64,000 nucleotides of DNA from Chromatiales bacterium (GTDB lineage: Bacteria > Pseudomonadota > Gammaproteobacteria > JAGRGH01). Below, one piece after another: positions 42,941 through 52,900 of this stretch. The notes below the pieces were generated by a model. The model did not search any database and had not been told where the DNA came from. It saw only the letters and a list, made by a program, of their open reading frames with translations. Location of the stretch: contig JAGRGH010000031.1 of NCBI GenBank assembly GCA_020445605.1, forward strand, positions 1-64,000, read 5' to 3'. Positions within the stretch are counted from its first letter, which is position 1; each line of letters starts with the position of its first letter. The position numbers and the translations under genes were made by a program.

Positions 42941-44134
42941 TCAGAAATACCGCGCGAGTTCGATGCGCACGTGATCCTCGTCGCGCAGCGCGAACAGCGG
43001 ATCGCGGGTATCGACGTCACTGAAGATCCGCGCATCCACCGACAGTTTCCAGCTCGCGCCGAACCTGCGGCTCGCTTCCACGAACCACGCACGGGTGCCG
43101 TCGCCCAGGTCCTGGATCACGCCCACCAGCGCCTCGGTGCTTTGCACGTCGTTCGCGGCCCAGCGCGCACCGACAAACAGGTCGTGCTCGAACGGCGTAC
43201 TGGCCTGATCGCGCCGCTCGTCGTAGTGCAGCTCGGCCAGCAGACCGAGATCCGCGGCACTCTCGAATATCCCGTAGCGCGTGTATTCGAAACCGCCGAC
43301 GGCTGCGAAATAGCCCGGCCCCTGTCCACTGCGGTGGATGCCCTCGAACTTCCACAGCCAGGCGTCGTGCGTGAACTGAATGTCCACCCCGGTCTGGTCG
43401 ATGATTTCATAGAGTGGCCGCAGCACGGGCATACCGCCGCGATCAAGTGCCGGCACGAAGCGTGGCTCGCGACTTGTACCGTGAAAATGCGAAATGCCGA
43501 CATCCCAGGCATCGAACGACCGGCGCCAGCGCAATGCGAAATCCACATGCCACTCGCGCGCGCCGGACGCATAGATCGGCCGATCCGTATCGACGACCGG
43601 CTGGGTGCGCAGCCGACCCCGCGGCCCGGGAAGCGTGCGCTCGCGAAAATACGGCAGAACGAAGAAATCCAGGTTGCCGAAGTCACGTTCGAGTCCGAGC
43701 TTGATCAGCGGCTGGCCCAGCTTGTCCTCGCCGTCGATGTTCTCGACGGCATCGGTCTGGTTGATGATGTCGACCAGATGCGCGGACTCCGTCACGCCCC
43801 AGAACACCTTGTCAAAGCCCAGGCGCAGCTCCCAGCGGTCACCGACATACAGATAAAACGCCTCGCGCAGATCCGCGTGGGTGCGTTCGTTGTCGCGCCC
43901 GTCGTAACGCGCGAACGGCGTGATGGTCAGACTCTGCCGGCCGTCGTCCCAGTCATGAAAGAACTCCGGTTCGACTGAAACCGACAGGCTGTCGCCGTGC
44001 TGATGACCATCGGGCGGCGCATGTGCAAACAGCCGCGCCTCGAGCGCGACGTTGCCGGACCACTCCGCCGCACCGGCCGCGCCTGCCAATAGCGCAACCA
44101 GCAGCGCAATCGCGATTCGACGCTCAGCGCGCAC
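42941..44134 (-). CDS. Outer-membrane beta-barrel protein of the RND-LolA-like unit
   Basis: 397 residues. A Sec signal ends GAAGAAEW. The rest is alternating strands with aromatic girdles (VALEARLFAH, LSVSVEPEFFHDW, SLTITPFARYDG, EAFYLYVGDRWELRLGFDKV at 20 residues) and ends in RIELARYF with a terminal Phe, the classical barrel end. It follows the LolA-like gene with an 11-base overlap. Similar barrels accompany RND exporters and LolA-like proteins, perhaps forming a path for a lipid to the outer membrane; this is inference. Confidence 0.75.
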   Translation of the reverse strand: MRAERRIAIALLVALLAGAAGAAEWSGNVALEARLFAHAPPDGHQHGDSLSVSVEPEFFHDWDDGRQSLTITPFARYDGRDNERTHADLREAFYLYVGDRWELRLGFDKVFWGVTESAHLVDIINQTDAVENIDGEDKLGQPLIKLGLERDFGNLDFFVLPYFRERTLPGPRGRLRTQPVVDTDRPIYASGAREWHVDFALRWRRSFDAWDVGISHFHGTSREPRFVPALDRGGMPVLRPLYEIIDQTGVDIQFTHDAWLWKFEGIHRSGQGPGYFAAVGGFEYTRYGIFESAADLGLLAELHYDERRDQASTPFEHDLFVGARWAANDVQSTEALVGVIQDLGDGTRAWFVEASRRFGASWKLSVDARIFSDVDTRDPLFALRDEDHVRIELARYF

Positions 44135-44912
44135 GCTTCAGGCTGTTCTGGCTGAAGTCGTTTTCGTTGAATCCGTGACCAAAGCGGTAGTCGTTCCAGC
44201 GCAGGATCGTGCGCTTGCCCGTCTGGTGGTTGCTCATGTCCATGACGCCGGCACGCCAGTACTGACCGAGATACTGCTGATACTCGCTGAAGATCAGCGT
44301 CTTGAGGTGTGCGTTCTTGCGATCGTAGTAATCGACCTTGGCCGGCCGGTAGTGCTCCTTGTCGATGAACACGACCTCGCGTGTGTAGCCGGAATTCTCG
44401 TCGACCGGGTCACGTTCGACCACGAACACCGGCCGGCCATCGAGCACATCGTCACGCAGAAAGCGGTGGCTGTACTTCTCGATTTCCTGCGAGTTCAGGT
44501 CTTCGTACGCGAACTCGCTGCCCATGAACGGCCCGGATTTGTTCGACGATGCGATGCGCTTGACCCGCTTGAGCGCCGGCAGATAAAGCCATTGATCGTC
44601 CGGACCCTGCTTGTGCGTGTAGGTCAAAAGCGAGGTTCCCTTGACATCGGCCGGTTCGTCGAAGCTAATCAGCGACTTGTCGCCGTCACCCGCGGTGGCC
44701 CCCTCCAGCACGCGCGTGTACATCGCGCGCACACTTTCCTCGCCATGGCGATTATGCAGAGTCATGACCATCTCGGCGGTGAAATCGCCGAAGCCGGTAT
44801 CGCGCCGATCGGTCTCAACCGCAATCGCGCGGCCCTGTTCCTCGGGCGTCTGCGCCATCGCCGCGCCGGCGACCAGGGCGAGCGCGAGGAGCCTATTTCT
44901 CGACACGAACAT
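44124..44912 (-). CDS. LolA-like outer-membrane lipoprotein-sorting protein
   Basis: 262 residues from the ATG at 44912 (a TTG two codons upstream is possible). A Sec signal ends GAAMAQ. The LolA/LppX-like half-barrel pattern is clear: DFTAEMVMTLHNRHGEESVR (20-residue sample), MYTRVLEG, GTSLLTYTHKQGPDDQWLYL (20-residue sample), PALKRVKRI, GSEFAYEDL and ELTPVE-like text as GYTREVVFIDKEHYRPAKVD (20-residue sample). Proteins of this group work with RND permeases and are distinct from true LolA. It overlaps the RND gene by 20 bases. Confidence 0.85.
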   Translation of the reverse strand: MFVSRNRLLALALVAGAAMAQTPEEQGRAIAVETDRRDTGFGDFTAEMVMTLHNRHGEESVRAMYTRVLEGATAGDGDKSLISFDEPADVKGTSLLTYTHKQGPDDQWLYLPALKRVKRIASSNKSGPFMGSEFAYEDLNSQEIEKYSHRFLRDDVLDGRPVFVVERDPVDENSGYTREVVFIDKEHYRPAKVDYYDRKNAHLKTLIFSEYQQYLGQYWRAGVMDMSNHQTGKRTILRWNDYRFGHGFNENDFSQNSLKRAR

Positions 44913-47241
44913 GATCAAACCTCAACAGCAGTGACGGCAGGTACAGAAAGTCGATCGCCAGCGCGAGCGCAATGGTGATCGCCGTCAAAAGGCCCATCTG
45001 CGAGTTCAGCACGAAGTGCGACATCGCCAGCACCAGGAAGCCGGCCACCAGCACCAGTGTGGTGATCCACAGCGCCATGCCGACGGTCGAAAACGCGTAC
45101 CGCACGGCGTCCGCCGGCAGCAGGCCGCGCTCGCGGCGCGCACGCAGGTACTTCGACAGGAAATGCACCGTGTCGTCGACGACGATGCCCAGCGTCATGC
45201 CGCTCACGACCGACAGCGCCAGCCCGATGCGCCCGACGGCCAGTCCCCAAATGCCGAATGCGATGGCAATCGGCAGCAGGTTTGGCACCAGGCTCACGAG
45301 ACCGAGTCGCCACGAGCGGAATGCGATGATCAGGATCGCCGAGATCACGACCAGCGCCAGGATCGAACCGAACAGCATCGAGCGGATATTCCGATAGCCG
45401 ATGTGCGAGAACATCACCGTCGGACTCGACCCGTGCGTGCGCATCACCGGCGGGAAGTTTTCATCCATCCAGACCGCAACCCGGTCCTCGAACGCAATCA
45501 CGCCGTTGCTGGAAAGGTTCTGCAGCGTCACGTTCAGGCGCGTGGACGACTTGCTGACGTTCAGCTGATCGTTCAGGTCGAGTCCGAACGGCAGCGAAAA
45601 CTCATACAGCAGCAGGTACTGCGCGGCGAGATCGCGCGCGGCGGGCAGGCGATACCAGGCCGGGTCATCGCCATGCATGCTCTTGTTCACCCGCCGCATG
45701 ATGTCGGTGAAACTGTGGACGTGGCGAACCTCGGGCTGCGCACGCAGGAACTGCGCAAAGGCGTCCACGCGCTCCAGGTACTGCGGGTCCGCAACGCCGT
45801 TGGGTTCGCCGGAGTCGATCGAGAACGCGATCTGGTAGAGCCCGGTCAGGTGGTCGGAGGTGTAGTCGGTGTGGGTACGAAATTCGATGCTTTCGTCGAA
45901 GTATTTCACGAACTCGTCGTTGAGTTCGTTGCGCGGAATGAACGCAATCGCAAAGACGATCAGCGCCGTATTCGCCAGGAACAGCGGCCGCTGGTTGCGG
46001 ATCACGAACTCGGCCAGCCGCTGCATGGAACCGGACGCACGCGTTTCGCCCGGCTTTACGCGGCTCGGCAGCAGCACCATCGCGGCCGGCAGAAAGGTGA
46101 TCGAGAGCAAAAACGCATAGACGACACCGAACGCCACCATGTTGCCCAGATCGCGAAACGGCGGTGCTTCGCTGAAGTTCATGGACAGAAAACCGACCGC
46201 CGTCGTCAGGCTGGTCAGAAACACCGGTTGCAGATTGACCCGCAGCGATTCGCGCATGGCCAGCGCGCGTGAATGTCCGGCCCGCAGCTGTTGCAGATAG
46301 GTCGTCAGCAGATGCACGCAGTCGGCGACCGCAAGGGTCAGGACGATCGTCGGGACCGACATCGTCGGCCCGGTCAGCGCAATGCCGGCCCAGCCCGCCG
46401 CGCCCATGGTCGCGGCGATCATCAGCACGATGATCACGAAAGTCACCAGCGTGCCCCAGACCGAGCGCAGCAGCACCGCCAGTGTGACGAGCACCAGCGC
46501 GAACATCAGTGGCACGAGCGTGGCGATATCCGCGAACGACGCCTCGGGGAACGCGTTGTTCAGCATCACCACGCCGGTCAGATGAACCTGATAGCCCGGA
46601 TGCGCGAGGCGAAACGCCTCGGCCATCGCCCGGACCTTGGCAACCACGGCCTCCACCGCATGCGCCTTTTTGTCGTCCGGCAACTGCACCGTGACATTGA
46701 CGCCAGTGACGCGCGCATCGGGCGCAATCAGGCGCCCTGCCAGCAAGGGTTCGGCCAGCGCAATGGCGCGAATGCGCGCTAGATCGGCATCGCCCAGCGT
46801 CTCGGGCGCATCGACCAGATCGCCCACCGCGAGATCATCGCCATCGGCCTCGGTGTGCTGGAAGTTCGTGATCGAATCCACGCGCAAGGAGTGCGGAACC
46901 TGCCAGCTGTCCAGCGTCAGCCGCTGGACGGCCGCCAGCGTCTCGCGCGTGAACACCTCGCCATCGGGCGGTGTGATCACGAACAGCACGTTGTCGTTCT
47001 TGGTATAGATGTTCTGCAAGGCCTCGAACGCGTTGAGCTGCGGGTTGTCCTTGCTGAAGAACACGCGATAGTCGGTCTCGAAGGTCAGAAAGCGCGCGCC
47101 GCTGGCGAGCAGCACGGTCAGCAGAACCGTCGCGAACAGCACCCAGACCGGATGGCGCAGCACGGCATCGAAGAAATGCTCGTAGCGCGTCGGCAGACGC
47201 GGCGGCCGTTCCACAACCGCTGTCGCCGGATCAGCCGACAC
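44893..47241 (-). CDS. RND/MMPL-family exporter
   Basis: 782 residues from a GTG at 47241 that overlaps the TetR stop by 11 bases. Two copies of the six-helix RND unit are seen, each with a periplasmic loop: helix 1 VLFATVLLTVLLASGARFL, the motif TVGFLSMNFSEAPPFRDLGN (20-residue sample) and, in the second half, VVSGMTLGIVVDDTVHFLSK (20-residue sample), with the proton-relay Asp pair in VDDTVHF. At this size it is the MMPL/HpnN class, which moves lipids or hopanoids rather than drugs. It works in the inner membrane with the LolA-like protein and the barrel. Confidence 0.9.
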   Translation of the reverse strand: MSADPATAVVERPPRLPTRYEHFFDAVLRHPVWVLFATVLLTVLLASGARFLTFETDYRVFFSKDNPQLNAFEALQNIYTKNDNVLFVITPPDGEVFTRETLAAVQRLTLDSWQVPHSLRVDSITNFQHTEADGDDLAVGDLVDAPETLGDADLARIRAIALAEPLLAGRLIAPDARVTGVNVTVQLPDDKKAHAVEAVVAKVRAMAEAFRLAHPGYQVHLTGVVMLNNAFPEASFADIATLVPLMFALVLVTLAVLLRSVWGTLVTFVIIVLMIAATMGAAGWAGIALTGPTMSVPTIVLTLAVADCVHLLTTYLQQLRAGHSRALAMRESLRVNLQPVFLTSLTTAVGFLSMNFSEAPPFRDLGNMVAFGVVYAFLLSITFLPAAMVLLPSRVKPGETRASGSMQRLAEFVIRNQRPLFLANTALIVFAIAFIPRNELNDEFVKYFDESIEFRTHTDYTSDHLTGLYQIAFSIDSGEPNGVADPQYLERVDAFAQFLRAQPEVRHVHSFTDIMRRVNKSMHGDDPAWYRLPAARDLAAQYLLLYEFSLPFGLDLNDQLNVSKSSTRLNVTLQNLSSNGVIAFEDRVAVWMDENFPPVMRTHGSSPTVMFSHIGYRNIRSMLFGSILALVVISAILIIAFRSWRLGLVSLVPNLLPIAIAFGIWGLAVGRIGLALSVVSGMTLGIVVDDTVHFLSKYLRARRERGLLPADAVRYAFSTVGMALWITTLVLVAGFLVLAMSHFVLNSQMGLLTAITIALALAIDFLYLPSLLLRFDHVRVEK

Positions 47242-47872
47242 GGCGCAGCGTCTCCAGATAACGGGCGAACTCCGCGGCGGTATCGGCAATCAGCGAAGGG
47301 TCGCGGCGGTTCTTGGCCAGCGTCAGCGCACCCTCGAGCACGACGACGAAGAAGTCGGCAACGCGCCGCGGGTCGAGCGCGGCATCGACCGTGCCGCGCC
47401 GTTGACCCCGATCGATGGTGGCGGCGATCGCCTCACGCCAGCGGTCGTAGATCGCCGCGATGCGCGTGCGAAACCCCTCATCGATTCCGGACATCTCCTG
47501 GGCGAGGTTCGTCAGCGGGCAGCCGAGCAGCACGGCCGTCTCCGACAGATGGTCGCGGCCGGCGGCGAGCAGGGACTGCAAGCCGGCGATCGGGTCCTGG
47601 GCTTCGGCCAGTGGTGCGATCCAGGTCGTTTCGATGAACGTCCGGATCACCTCGTCGACCACCGCATAGCCGAGCTCGCGCTTGCTGGCGAAGTGGTAGT
47701 ACAGCGCGCCCTTGGTGAGACCGGCCTGGTCGAGGATGCGCGTGAGGCTCGCGGCCTGGAATCCAGCCGCGTGGATTTCGTGGTAGGCCGCACGCAACAG
47801 AACGCGGCGTGTATCGACGGCCGGAGCGCCCGCATGCGCGGCGCCGGTCGACACCTGTGCCGTCCGACTCAT
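47231..47872 (-). CDS. TetR-family repressor of the RND unit
   Basis: 213 residues. The helix-turn-helix is standard: LLRAAYHEIHAAGFQAASLT (20-residue sample), then RILDQAGLTKGALYYHFASK (20-residue sample), with the YYHF hallmark. The ligand domain is of the TetR_C/AcrR type. It leads the operon TetR-RND-LolA-like-barrel, and a perfect inverted repeat 20 bases before its start (47892-47915) is the likely operator. So it probably represses its own operon until a ligand, perhaps the lipid carried, is present. Confidence 0.93.
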   Translation of the reverse strand: MSRTAQVSTGAAHAGAPAVDTRRVLLRAAYHEIHAAGFQAASLTRILDQAGLTKGALYYHFASKRELGYAVVDEVIRTFIETTWIAPLAEAQDPIAGLQSLLAAGRDHLSETAVLLGCPLTNLAQEMSGIDEGFRTRIAAIYDRWREAIAATIDRGQRRGTVDAALDPRRVADFFVVVLEGALTLAKNRRDPSLIADTAAEFARYLETLRRVG

Positions 47873-48023: not shown

Positions 48024-49808
48024 TCAGGCGACCCGGTTGCCGGCCGGACGTCGCGCCGGGTTCCGGCGCGTGCGCCCGCCGACGCTGTGCGCTTCGGAAA
48101 GTCCCGCGAAGAAATGCCGCGCATTCGTGCCCAGCGTACTGGTGCGATAGCCGCCCTCCTGGACCACGAGAATCGGCTGTTCGAGCGCGCCGATGATCCG
48201 ACCGTTGCGTTCGAAGTCCTGCGCCTTCAGTGTCCAGGTGCCGGTCGGGTCGTCCTTTGCGGTATCGAGCCCCAGCGCCAGCACGACGTAGGCGGGCCGG
48301 AACCGCCGGATGCGCCGCATGGCGTCCTCGAGGGTGCGCTGGTAGCGCTCCACACTGGTTCGCTCCGGCAGCGGGTAGTTGATGTTGTAGCCGTCGCCGT
48401 CGCCGACCCCGCGTTCGTCGGCGAAGCCCGCGAAGTGCGGATAGGCGAAATGCGGATCGCCATGAATGGAAATCGTCAACACGTCGGCACGGTGATAGAA
48501 GATGTCCTGCGTGCCGTTGCCGTGATGAAAGTCGACATCGAGCACCACCACGCGACCAAACTGGCTCAGATAATTCGCCGCGACGGCCGACGAATTGAAA
48601 TAGCAGAACCCGCCGAACGCACGCCGTTCGGCATGATGCCCCGGCGGGCGGACCAGCGCATAGGCGAGCGAATAGCCCTTGAGCAGTTCCTCGGCGCCGG
48701 TCAGTGCGCAATCGACCGAACCACGCGCGGCGAGATAGGCATTGCGGTTCAGCGGCGTGAAGGTGTCCATGCAGTAATAGCCGACCTGCAGTTCGAAGTC
48801 CTTCGGCGGGCGCAGGTTGTTGCGGATCGGAAAGATGATCGGGTAGATCGACTTGCCCGGCGGCAACTGTGCGCAGGCATGGCGCAGATAATCCACATAC
48901 TTGTGATCGTGCACGGCCTTGATCCACTTTTCCGCCGCGCGCCGCGGCGCGACGCGCGTGAACAGCCCCGTGCGTTCGATGCGGCTCAGTATTGCGGAAA
49001 GCCGCACCGGTGCCTCGACATAACCGCGGTCCTTCACATGGTGAATGTCGTGACCCTCGTTGACGACGAGCGCAATGCCGCGGTGCAGCCGCGGGTCGTG
49101 CCTGACCCGGCTCGGCACCACGTAACGCAGCGCCCGCAGCTGCACCGGGTCGTCGCGAAACGAGCGCACGACCTCGTCGATCTGCGCCTTCGGCAGCAGA
49201 TCGCCATACTTGCGATCGAGTATCGCGCGCACCACCGTGCGCGCGGTACGGCGATCCAGCTCCGTCCCCTGGCCCAGCCCGTCGAACACGAGGTAGTAGA
49301 GGTCCTTGTCGCCGGGCTTGACCGGTGAAGCGTAGACGTTGTTGATCAGCGGCCGCGCGCCATAGCGCTCATAGAACTTCAGACGCGCGACGTTCTGTGC
49401 GAGCACGGCGGCGTCGTCGATCACCTCCGGATCATCCACGCTGCACTCGAAGAACACACCGAGCGCATTGAGCGAAAGCGCCTCTTCGCGCACGCGTTCG
49501 TACAGTGCGCCGCCGACGCCGCCACCCATGCCGTCCGGCGCGGTCGAGATCAGCTCCAGATACACCACGTCGATGTCGGTCAGGTGCAGCAGCATTGCGA
49601 AGCCCTTGACGCGGCCGACACCATCCTCGGCCACGAGCAGGACCGAACGGTAGCGGTACTTCAGCGGATCGGTGAGCTGCTCGGGCAGCCTTTCGAACTC
49701 GACCGGGCGCGCATTCGGAAACTGCGCGCGCAGGATCGCCAGCACCTCGTCCACGGTCTCGCGGTTGCTGGGGGCGACGGCGTCGAAAATCTTCCGGATG
49801 CGAAACAT
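48024..49808 (-). CDS. GNAT acetyltransferase-histone deacetylase fusion
   Basis: 594 residues from the ATG at 49808. Residues 1-180 form a GNAT domain: GRVKGFAMLLHL, then YLELISTAPDGMGGGVGGAL (20-residue sample, with the acetyl-CoA loop) and NVARLKFYERYGARPLINNV (20-residue sample). From about 260 on is a class II-type deacetylase domain: RPPGHHAERRAFGGFCYFNS (20-residue sample, with the His pair), VLDVDFHHGNGTQDIFYH (zinc Asp and His), SIHGDPHFAYP, LGLDTAKDDPTG (zinc Asp) and VQEGGY (Tyr). Both halves keep their key residues. It is divergent from mfd. One chain with an acetyltransferase and a deacetylase is unusual; targets could be proteins or polyamines. Confidence 0.85.
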   Translation of the reverse strand: MFRIRKIFDAVAPSNRETVDEVLAILRAQFPNARPVEFERLPEQLTDPLKYRYRSVLLVAEDGVGRVKGFAMLLHLTDIDVVYLELISTAPDGMGGGVGGALYERVREEALSLNALGVFFECSVDDPEVIDDAAVLAQNVARLKFYERYGARPLINNVYASPVKPGDKDLYYLVFDGLGQGTELDRRTARTVVRAILDRKYGDLLPKAQIDEVVRSFRDDPVQLRALRYVVPSRVRHDPRLHRGIALVVNEGHDIHHVKDRGYVEAPVRLSAILSRIERTGLFTRVAPRRAAEKWIKAVHDHKYVDYLRHACAQLPPGKSIYPIIFPIRNNLRPPKDFELQVGYYCMDTFTPLNRNAYLAARGSVDCALTGAEELLKGYSLAYALVRPPGHHAERRAFGGFCYFNSSAVAANYLSQFGRVVVLDVDFHHGNGTQDIFYHRADVLTISIHGDPHFAYPHFAGFADERGVGDGDGYNINYPLPERTSVERYQRTLEDAMRRIRRFRPAYVVLALGLDTAKDDPTGTWTLKAQDFERNGRIIGALEQPILVVQEGGYRTSTLGTNARHFFAGLSEAHSVGGRTRRNPARRPAGNRVA

Positions 49809-49960: not shown

Positions 49961-52900
49961 ATGAATTCTCCCGTCACCCGCAACGCCCAAGGTGTTCAGC
50001 CCGCCACGCGACGCTGGGGACAGCTGCACGGTGACGCCCTGGCCTGGGCGGTCGCCGAGCGCGCGCGGTCGGGTGCCGGTCTGACGGTCGTGGTCTGCGG
50101 CGAGCCCGTCGCGGCCGAGAGCTGCGCTGCGGCCGTGCGTTTCTTTGCCGGACCGCAGATCAGCGTATTCGGGTTTCCGGACTGGGAAACCCTGCCCTAC
50201 GACCTCTTCGCGCCGCTGCCCGAGATCGTCTCGGAGCGTCTGCGCACGCTCTACCGGCTACCGCAGGCACACGGCGGTGTGCTCGTGCTGCCGGTCGCGA
50301 CCCTGCTCGGACGCCTGCCACCGACGGATTTCGTCGCCGGCAACGTGCTGCTGTTCGAGCGCGGTGAGCGCCTGGACATCGAAACCCTGCGCAGGCGTCT
50401 GGATGCCGCGGGCTACGTGCATGTCCCGCAGGTCGCGCAGCACGGCGAGATCGCGGTGCGCGGTGCGGTGATCGATCTGTACCCGATGGGCGGCGACCGC
50501 CCCTATCGCATCGACCTCGACGATGACGAGGTCGACTCCATCCGCAGTTTCGATCCCGACACCCAGCGCACGATCGAACGCGTCGAGCGCATCGAACTCC
50601 TGCCGGGCCGCGAGTTCCCGCTCGACGAGGCCGGCATCGCGCAGTTTCGCAGCCAGTACCGCCGCCGCGTGGAGGGTGACCCGAACCGCTCGCGCATCTA
50701 CCGCGACATCAGCGATGGTCGCGTACCCGGCGGCATCGAGTACTACCTGCCGCTGTTCTTCCCGCAGACCGCGACGCTGTTCGACTACCTGCCCGCCGAC
50801 GCGCGCATCGTGCTGGCCGAGGACGCACTGAAGACGGCATCCGCGTTTCTGGAGCAGGTGACCCTGCGCCATGCCGAACGTGGCGTCGATCCGGAGCGGC
50901 CGATTCTCGCGCCGGCGGACCTGTACCTGAACGAATCGACACTCGCCGAGCATCTCGCCCGACTCGACGCGGTTGAGACGCAGCCCATGAAACTGCCGGA
51001 CTCGACCGCGCCGCTGCGCAATTTCCCGACCGGCGCCCTGCCCGAGCTGCACTTCCACGCGCGCGCCGACGATCCGGCCGCCGCCTTCCGCGCCTTCGCC
51101 GGGCGGCCCGGATTGCGGGTACTGGTCACCGCCGATGGACCGGGCCGGCGTGAACTGCTGGCCGACACCCTGCGCGATCTGGGCTTTGCGCCGGGCACGA
51201 CGGCCGACTGGCAGGAGTTTCAGGCCGGCACGGCGCAGCTGGCCGTCGGCATCGCACCGCTCGAGCACGGGCTGTGGCTGCCCGACGACGGACTGGCGGT
51301 CGTCCCGGAAGCGAAGCTGCTTGGCATCCGTCCCGCGCAGCGCCGCCGGGTCAGAACCGAGCGCGACCCGGACCAGATCGTGCGCAACCTCACCGAGCTG
51401 CACGACGGCGCACCGGTCGTGCACGAGCTGCACGGCGTCGGGCGCTACGCGGGACTGACCCATCTCGATGTCGGCGGCATCCCCGGCGAGTTCGTTGTCA
51501 TCGAATACGCCGGCAACGACCGCCTGTACGTGCCGGTCGCGGCGCTTGGCCTGCTGAGCCGCTACGCCGGCACGACGCCCGAAAGCGCGCCGCTGCACAA
51601 GCTCGGCGGCCAGCAATGGAGCAAGGCGCGCGCGAAGGCGGCACAGCGCGTGCGCGACATCGCCGCCGAACTGCTCGACCTGCATGCCCGCCGCGCCGCC
51701 CGCAAGGGGCACGCGTTCCCGGAACCCAGCGGGGACTACGCGGCGTTCGCCGCCGCGTTCCCGTTCGAGGAAACCCCGGATCAGCAGCGTGCAATCGACG
51801 AGGTGCTCGGCGATCTCGTGCGCGGTCAGCCCACCGACCGCGTGGTCTGCGGCGATGTCGGCTTCGGCAAGACCGAGGTCGCGATGCGCGCCGCCTATGT
51901 CGCCGCCACGGCCGGTCGCCAGGTTGCCGTACTCGCGCCGACCACCCTGCTCGCACAGCAGCATTTCCAGAACTTCAGCGACCGGTTTGCCGACACCGCG
52001 GTTCGCGTCGAACTGCTTTCACGCCTGCGCAGCAAAAGCCAGCAGCAGGCGGCCCTCGATGCGCTGGCCGCGGGCGGTGTCGACATCGTCATCGGCACCC
52101 ACCGTCTGCTGCAACCGGACGTGCGCTTCAAGCGCCTCGGACTGGTCATCATCGACGAAGAACACCGCTTCGGCGTGCGTCACAAGGAACGCTTCAAGCA
52201 GCTGCGCGCCGAGGTCGACCTGCTGACGCTGACCGCCACGCCGATCCCGCGCACGCTGAACATGGCGATGGCGGGCCTGCGCGATCTGTCGATCATCGCG
52301 ACCCCGCCACCCAACCGGCATGCGATCAAGACCTTCGTCACCGAATGGGACGACGCCCTGATTCGAGATGCGATCGCCCGCGAACTCAAACGCGGCGGCC
52401 AGGTCTACGTGCTGCACAACGAGATCAGGACGATCGACCAGGTTGCCGAAGACATTCGCAGGATCGTGCCGCAGGCGCGCGTGGAGGTCGGTCACGGCCA
52501 AATGGCCGAACGCGAACTGGAACGCGTGATGGTCGACTTCTACCACCAGCGTTTCAACGTGCTGGTGTGCACGACGATCATCGAATCCGGCATTGACGTG
52601 CCCAGCGCGAACACGATCATCATGGATCGCGCCGACAAGCTCGGACTCGCGCAGCTGCATCAGTTGCGCGGTCGCGTCGGCCGCTCGCATCACCGGGCCT
52701 ATGCCTACCTGCTGGTGCCCTCGCTGCGCGGACTGAGTGGCGATGCGCGCAAACGTCTGGAAGCCATCGAGTCTACCGAGGACCTCGGCGCCGGTTTCAT
52801 GCTCGCAACGCACGACATGGAGATTCGCGGTGCCGGTGAACTGCTCGGCGACGAACAGAGCGGCCAGATTCAGGAGATTGGTTTCGCGCTGTACTCAGAA

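Follow-up and report, generated by a model that had tools for sequence, protein, structure and literature searches.

The gene considered here lies on the minus strand of the window, a 64,000-nucleotide stretch of a Chromatiales bacterium contig, and encodes an acetyltransferase and a deacetylase in one chain. As the open reading frame is read, the ATG starts at 49808 and the stop codon ends at 48024, giving a chain of 594 residues whose start Met occupies an invariant column in 50 of 50 aligned relatives. The gene, its parts and the genes on one side of it are as follows.

48024..49808 (-), GNAT-HDAC fusion gene, 594 aa, stop included (ORF, Pfam and relatives)
49119..49808 (-), GNAT acetyltransferase domain, residues 1 to about 230 (Pfam, AlphaFold2 model, fold matches)
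49554..49556 (-), Glu85 on strand 81-89, candidate catalytic base (model and alignment)
49503..49529 (-), acetyl-CoA loop, residues 94-102, MGGGVGGAL (G97 and G99 invariant)
49371..49373 (-), Tyr146, invariant, candidate GNAT general acid (alignment)
48078..49091 (-), HDAC-class zinc deacylase domain, residues about 240 to 577 (Pfam PF00850, structure match)
48792..48794 (-), Glu339, equivalent of MrAPAH Glu106, a polyamine-specificity residue (alignment; excerpts of PMC11532494)
48633..48638 (-), catalytic His391-His392 (invariant, 50/50)
48525..48533 (-), zinc ligands Asp426 and His428 (invariant, 50/50)
48264..48266 (-), zinc ligand Asp515 (invariant, 50/50)
48240..48248 (-), Pro521-Thr522-Gly523 (PTG), where APAHs have PIS (all three invariant, 50/50)
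48147..48149 (-), catalytic Tyr554 (invariant, 50/50)
42941-47872 (-), TetR regulator, RND/MMPL transporter, 264-aa protein without an NCBIfam match and 397-aa ORF, adjoining the fusion gene

Pfam places Hist_deacetyl (PF00850) at residues 264-569 with an E-value of 1.7e-77 and Acetyltransf_1 at residues 21-126, the latter at 24.8 bits against a cut-off of 20.7. All 50 family members match the deacetylase model, while 34 of the 50 match Acetyltransf_1 and 36 match Acetyltransf_7 (E 0.001); the fusion protein matches no NCBIfam family up to E 1. A preliminary description of the locus had proposed that the GNAT domain keeps its acetyl-CoA loop and that the deacetylase keeps its His pair, its zinc Asp/His/Asp and its Tyr. 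The residues concerned are kept in the alignment, G97 and G99 of the loop being invariant in 50 of 50 relatives (with Met94, not Q or R, at its first position) and H391, H392, D426, H428, D515 and Y554 likewise. The structure prediction suggested there for both halves yields confidently predicted GNAT and HDAC-class folds, the AlphaFold2 model of the whole chain as a monomer having a pLDDT of 85.9 and a pTM of 0.67, and that of the GNAT half alone (m70b7ce78354e) a pLDDT of 91.9 and a pTM of 0.89.

The same domain order recurs in other genomes, across the best 80 relatives from a contig search: 79 of these loci are complete, aligning from residue 1 or 2 to at least residue 570 at 53-74% identity, and the remaining one (L028) starts at a contig edge and is therefore partial. 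Fourteen named phyla are represented, seven further loci having no phylum; many of the loci come from MAGs, so that single odd phyla may be mis-binned. Named isolates with the fusion include Sinimarinibacterium flocculans, Desulfacinum infernum and Desulfofustis glycolicus. When the GNAT half is the sole query, 14 of 274 genomes of the class yield a total of 15 genes, and the HDAC half follows in frame in 15 of 15. Among 148 Desulfobacterota genomes, 11 carry the fusion, every copy at full length. A draw of 299 Pseudomonadota genomes gives 53 matches at E 1e-60, and both halves are spanned only by the window's own; the others start at profile position 227 or beyond, which identifies them as standalone deacylases. 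The draw made for the Dehalococcoidales locus, of 151 genomes, matches only in that locus's own genome. The possibility raised at the outset, that the fusion is absent in all relatives and reflects an assembly error, is excluded by the 79 full-length loci, and together with the conservation of columns and the in-frame pairs these rule out a chance ORF as well. As judged from the sequences, the fusion is confirmed as real and obligate. For the row set used below, L019, L037, L048, L070 and L076 were dropped because of a stop within the matched range and L028 because it is partial, and 79 fusion rows were kept. Two contigs labelled Sulfurimonas (L022, L047) carry fusions nested among gammaproteobacterial ones, by transfer or by mis-binning. 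The window's genome also holds a second HDAC-class match (G000:C31:129709-130287), 28% identical and about 80 kb away.

Fold matches (VIA) of the GNAT half reach Z 16.7 for 2wpx (168 aligned, 2.7 A) and Z 15.6 for RimI 5isv (146 aligned, 2.6 A), and many GNAT enzymes match at similar scores, 16.7 being the best. The half resembles the superfamily (RimI, GCN5, SpeG) in its fold, its GxG acetyl-CoA loop and the Tyr on its last helix, but differs in having no NCBIfam family and no close sequence relative among solved structures, where the domain profile finds no GNAT better than E 0.022. The acetyl-CoA loop motif of GNATs is Q/R-x-x-G-x-G/A, with Q or R usual at its first position; that position is Met94 in the window protein and mostly Thr in its relatives. 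The GNAT half is conserved less than the HDAC half.

For the deacylase half, the closest solved deacylases are all acetylpolyamine enzymes. The match to msAPAH 6pi1 (VIA) has Z 47.6 with 329 residues aligned at 2.0 A and 38% identity, and HDAC10 and the lysine deacetylases rank behind at Z about 40. With acetylpolyamine amidohydrolases (APAHs; cluster 4 of the bacterial deacylases in excerpts of PMC11532494) it shares the fold, the His-His pair, the Asp/His/Asp zinc site and the Tyr, and the window's protein has the equivalent of Glu106 as Glu339. Excerpts of the same paper have the PIS motif as the mark of bacterial polyamine deacetylases, MrAPAH Glu106 as a residue of the L2 specificity loop that contacts the polyamine, and Glu117 as the second acidic position of that loop; they also give His at the Glu106 position in PsApaH, polyamine deacetylases differing there. 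The window family departs from APAHs in its fused GNAT domain, in having PTG in place of the PIS (290-292) gatekeeper motif, in having Phe at the MrAPAH Glu117 position (Phe350 in the window protein, Phe in 49 of 50 fusions) and in the loss of the Glu106 equivalent from those fusions that are linked to the operon described below. PTG also occurs in 25 of 26 further fusion genes; among 21 standalone relatives the middle position of the motif is Ile in 18, and the 339 column is variable there too. In the deacylase tree the fusion deacylases separate from 19 APAHs with support of 100/100. APAHs are further marked by a head-to-head dimer built through the L1 and L2 loops and by deacetylation of acetylpolyamines. 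A plain APAH identity was rejected, as the family has neither the PIS motif nor a Glu117 equivalent, and for the same reason (PTG and Phe350) polyamine use is uncertain even in the window's lineage. Each domain is of a known kind; the family would appear to be an APAH-like deacylase joined to a GNAT domain, outside APAH proper by the motif test.

Clustering of the genes flanking the 80 loci finds a recurrent set, consisting of a KamA-family radical SAM aminomutase, a tandem pair of Ddl-type ATP-grasp ligases and a small GNAT. Both ligases are present in 38 of the 80 fusion loci (on the fusion's strand in 37 of the 38), KamA accompanies them in 37, and all four partners occur in 36. The best structure-database match of KamA is lysine 2,3-aminomutase (2a5h), and Asp293, Asp330 and Lys337 (2a5h numbering), of which we take the first two to bind the lysine side chain and the third to bind PLP, are kept in 33 of 33 rows (from the 37, L043, L048 and L065 were dropped for an internal stop and L033 for a low score). 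The KamA of L039 falls below the cut-off of the NCBIfam AblA model TIGR03820 (471.4 vs 525.4 bits) and above that of the KamA family TIGR00238 (333 vs 199.2); with the residues kept despite the AblA score, beta-lysine is a likely product but not a certain one. The ATP-grasp genes are like D-alanine--D-alanine ligase (Ddl) in fold (Pfam Dala_Dala_lig_C), but both score under every NCBIfam Ddl cut-off among those listed, and they form a tandem pair beside KamA in all 20 operon loci fetched from Desulfobacterota except L144, where other genes lie between. As in known systems with a lysine-2,3-aminomutase-type gene, acetyltransferase genes adjoin that gene in the operon; beyond lysine-2,3-aminomutase and acetyltransferase there are here a deacylase and two ATP-grasp ligases. 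NCBIfam presumably holds a model for AblB, the beta-lysine N-acetyltransferase; the fusion has no match to it up to E 1, and the small GNAT matches other NCBIfam models only, all below their cut-offs.

The operon also exists apart from the fusion. Among the 148 Desulfobacterota genomes the ligase (E 1e-30) is found in 52 and the fusion in 11, with the ligase present in 10 of the 11 fusion genomes vs 42 of the 137 fusion-free ones (Fisher p 1.2e-4, a value that ignores kinship). The 20 operon loci fetched from this phylum (L132-L151), 14 of which were chosen from fusion-free genomes, have the four-gene core in 17 cases and the fusion in one (L147). The core operon being mostly without the fusion there, the fusion is an accessory part of a commoner operon, and is not needed for making the operon's product. 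In the eleventh fusion genome (G442), what is left of the ligase, next to KamA, is interrupted by six stops (G442:C56:6432-6800). Elsewhere, a further GNAT lies near the fusion at L033, L053 and L056, and L033 and L053 have in addition an ArgE/DapE-type M20 deacylase, which makes a second acetylation/deacetylation pair. MscS channel genes flank eight of the 80 fusion loci (L013, L034, L039, L053, L058, L062, L089, L090) vs none of the 20 operon loci, in flanks of different sizes; this is only a hint of an osmolyte or osmotic link for the fusion.

The window's lineage is different. An operon elsewhere in the window's genome is ruled out, as a dedicated ligase is absent and the KamA match (E 1.3e-50) and Ddl match (E 2.2e-20), at 31% identity each, are distant. 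Across this genome and 14 operon-free proteobacterial genomes (those of L013-L021, L024, L026, L029, L030 and L031), KamA matches reach only 29-38% identity and ligase matches 26-33%. The class draw has the true operon ligase (E below 1e-100) in 4 of its 14 fusion genomes, the 10 without it including the window's. The fusion gene is, as had been noted, divergent from mfd (NCBIfam mfd at 1000 bits, ATG at 49961), but this neighbour is not conserved among relatives whose neighbours could be read, and it looks incidental. A role connected with mfd or with the adjoining TetR/RND genes finds no support, the flanks differing from locus to locus in those operon-free relatives that could be read.

In a full-length tree without an outgroup, 22 operon-free rows form one clade with support of 100, beside the operon-bearing rows. 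In a deacylase tree rooted on the 19 APAHs, with L006 and L007 left out, the same 22 rows are a paraphyletic base and the other 56 rows a clade (100/99); this tree has a long outgroup branch (1.28) and drew a warning from the program about long branches meeting. (L005 is labelled as operon-bearing in the full-length tree owing to a weak match on the opposite strand that proves not to be the operon ligase, and was omitted from the residue comparison.) Nine columns separate the 22 operon-free rows from 37 operon-linked rows. Position 339 is Glu in 18 of 22 operon-free rows and in none of the 37 operon-linked ones, which mostly have Pro; position 427, between two zinc ligands, is Phe in the former and Tyr in the latter; position 458 is His in 16 of 22 vs Tyr in 37 of 37; and position 85, in the GNAT half, is Glu in 21 of 22 vs Asp in 35 of 37. 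Among genes outside this comparison, Glu339 is found in four of seven operon-free genes (the exceptions being Pro in L153 and L154 and Ala in L165) and in none of 13 others, drawn from ten additional Desulfobacterota genomes and from three genomes of the class that have the operon. Genome G541 has two copies of the fusion, one with Pro339 and one with Glu339. The separating columns fall in both active sites, with 85 in that of the GNAT half and 339, 427 and 458 in that of the HDAC half, a pattern that fits a single substrate for both halves. The shift follows the tree, so it may represent only one or two evolutionary events, and p-values overstate the evidence. The family occurs in two kinds of genomic setting, and its substrate probably changes from one to the other.

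Conserved among many distantly related bacteria, often next to genes that appear to produce an unusual amino acid, the fusion is probably a real two-way enzyme. Our tentative reading is that it both acetylates and deacetylates a small cationic amine at nitrogen, the amine being polyamine-like in the window's lineage and beta-lysine-derived where the operon is linked. The GNAT half would move acetyl from acetyl-CoA onto a primary amino group of a small, positively charged metabolite, and the zinc half would hydrolyse acetyl off that metabolite again, or off something made from it. In the operon lineages the KamA-type aminomutase would make beta-lysine, the two Ddl-type ligases would join it to something else, and the GNATs would acetylate. 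In the window's lineage a diamine or polyamine is the more likely amine, given that the operon is missing and the pocket keeps the polyamine-binding glutamate. The preliminary description had likewise suggested an acetylated polyamine or lysine, and a small-molecule substrate of this kind agrees with APAHs as the nearest deacylases, with the lysine-2,3-aminomutase-type operon gene and with Glu339. Two opposed reactions within one polypeptide would waste acetyl-CoA if nothing regulated them. What the sequences show is the obligate fusion with its intact sites and folds, the operon and the residue shift; both activities, the common substrate and its identity are inferred, as is any regulation against a futile cycle. 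A fuller scenario, which we think unlikely, has an operon-free, polyamine-type acetyl switch on one small amine later recruited into the beta-lysine/ATP-grasp operon, both sites being retuned together, so as to control or complete the synthesis of an undescribed beta-lysine conjugate.

The two halves might instead perform successive steps and not form a switch, the GNAT blocking the beta-lysine amine in operon lineages, the ligases coupling the free end and the zinc half then removing the block. A gene order of KamA-ligase-ligase, accompanied by the fusion and another GNAT, would suit such a protecting-group enzyme, and protecting a lysine amine by acetylation ahead of ligation is an accepted idea for other clusters in excerpts of PMC2922099; but the core operon is without the fusion in 19 of 20 fetched loci (14 of the 20 having been picked as fusion-free) and the window's lineage is without such ligases, and we consider this explanation improbable. 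Also of low probability is a switch acting on protein lysines, acetylated by the GNAT half and restored by the zinc half. Elsewhere, members of the HDAC class and GNATs do carry out these reactions on proteins, and according to excerpts of PMC11532494 lysine peptides are also substrates of some bacterial polyamine deacetylases, but polyamine enzymes are clearly nearer to the zinc half than lysine deacetylases are (Z 47 vs 40), and the operon partners are small-molecule enzymes.

A GNAT half serving mainly as a sensor or oligomerisation domain, gating the deacylase by acetyl-CoA and transferring no acetyl itself, would solve the futile-cycle problem, and would be consistent with Met or Thr at the Q/R position of the CoA loop and with the weaker conservation of this half. 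It nevertheless seems quite improbable, as Tyr146 and an acid at position 85 are kept in nearly all rows and sensing alone would need neither. Finally, the halves could act on different substrates and be fused for reasons of co-expression or transport. A common substrate is unproven by the present evidence, which leaves room for this, but the context-linked substitutions occur in both sites together (perhaps as one event), and we regard separate substrates as unlikely. The bifunctional small-amine enzyme remains the reading that we tentatively prefer.

In the part of the open-licence literature that our search covered, no paper was found to describe the fusion or the operon; the fusion family is widespread but, as far as this search shows, undescribed. 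Enzymes that add and enzymes that remove acetyl groups are normally separate proteins. Their obligate fusion, kept in many phyla, is a natural system in which to study how two opposed activities escape a futile cycle. Since the two contexts differ by Glu or Pro at position 339, a single mutation there would directly test the proposed change of substrate, and the operon suggests that sulfate reducers, Chloroflexota and Planctomycetes have a metabolite derived from beta-lysine that is as yet undescribed.
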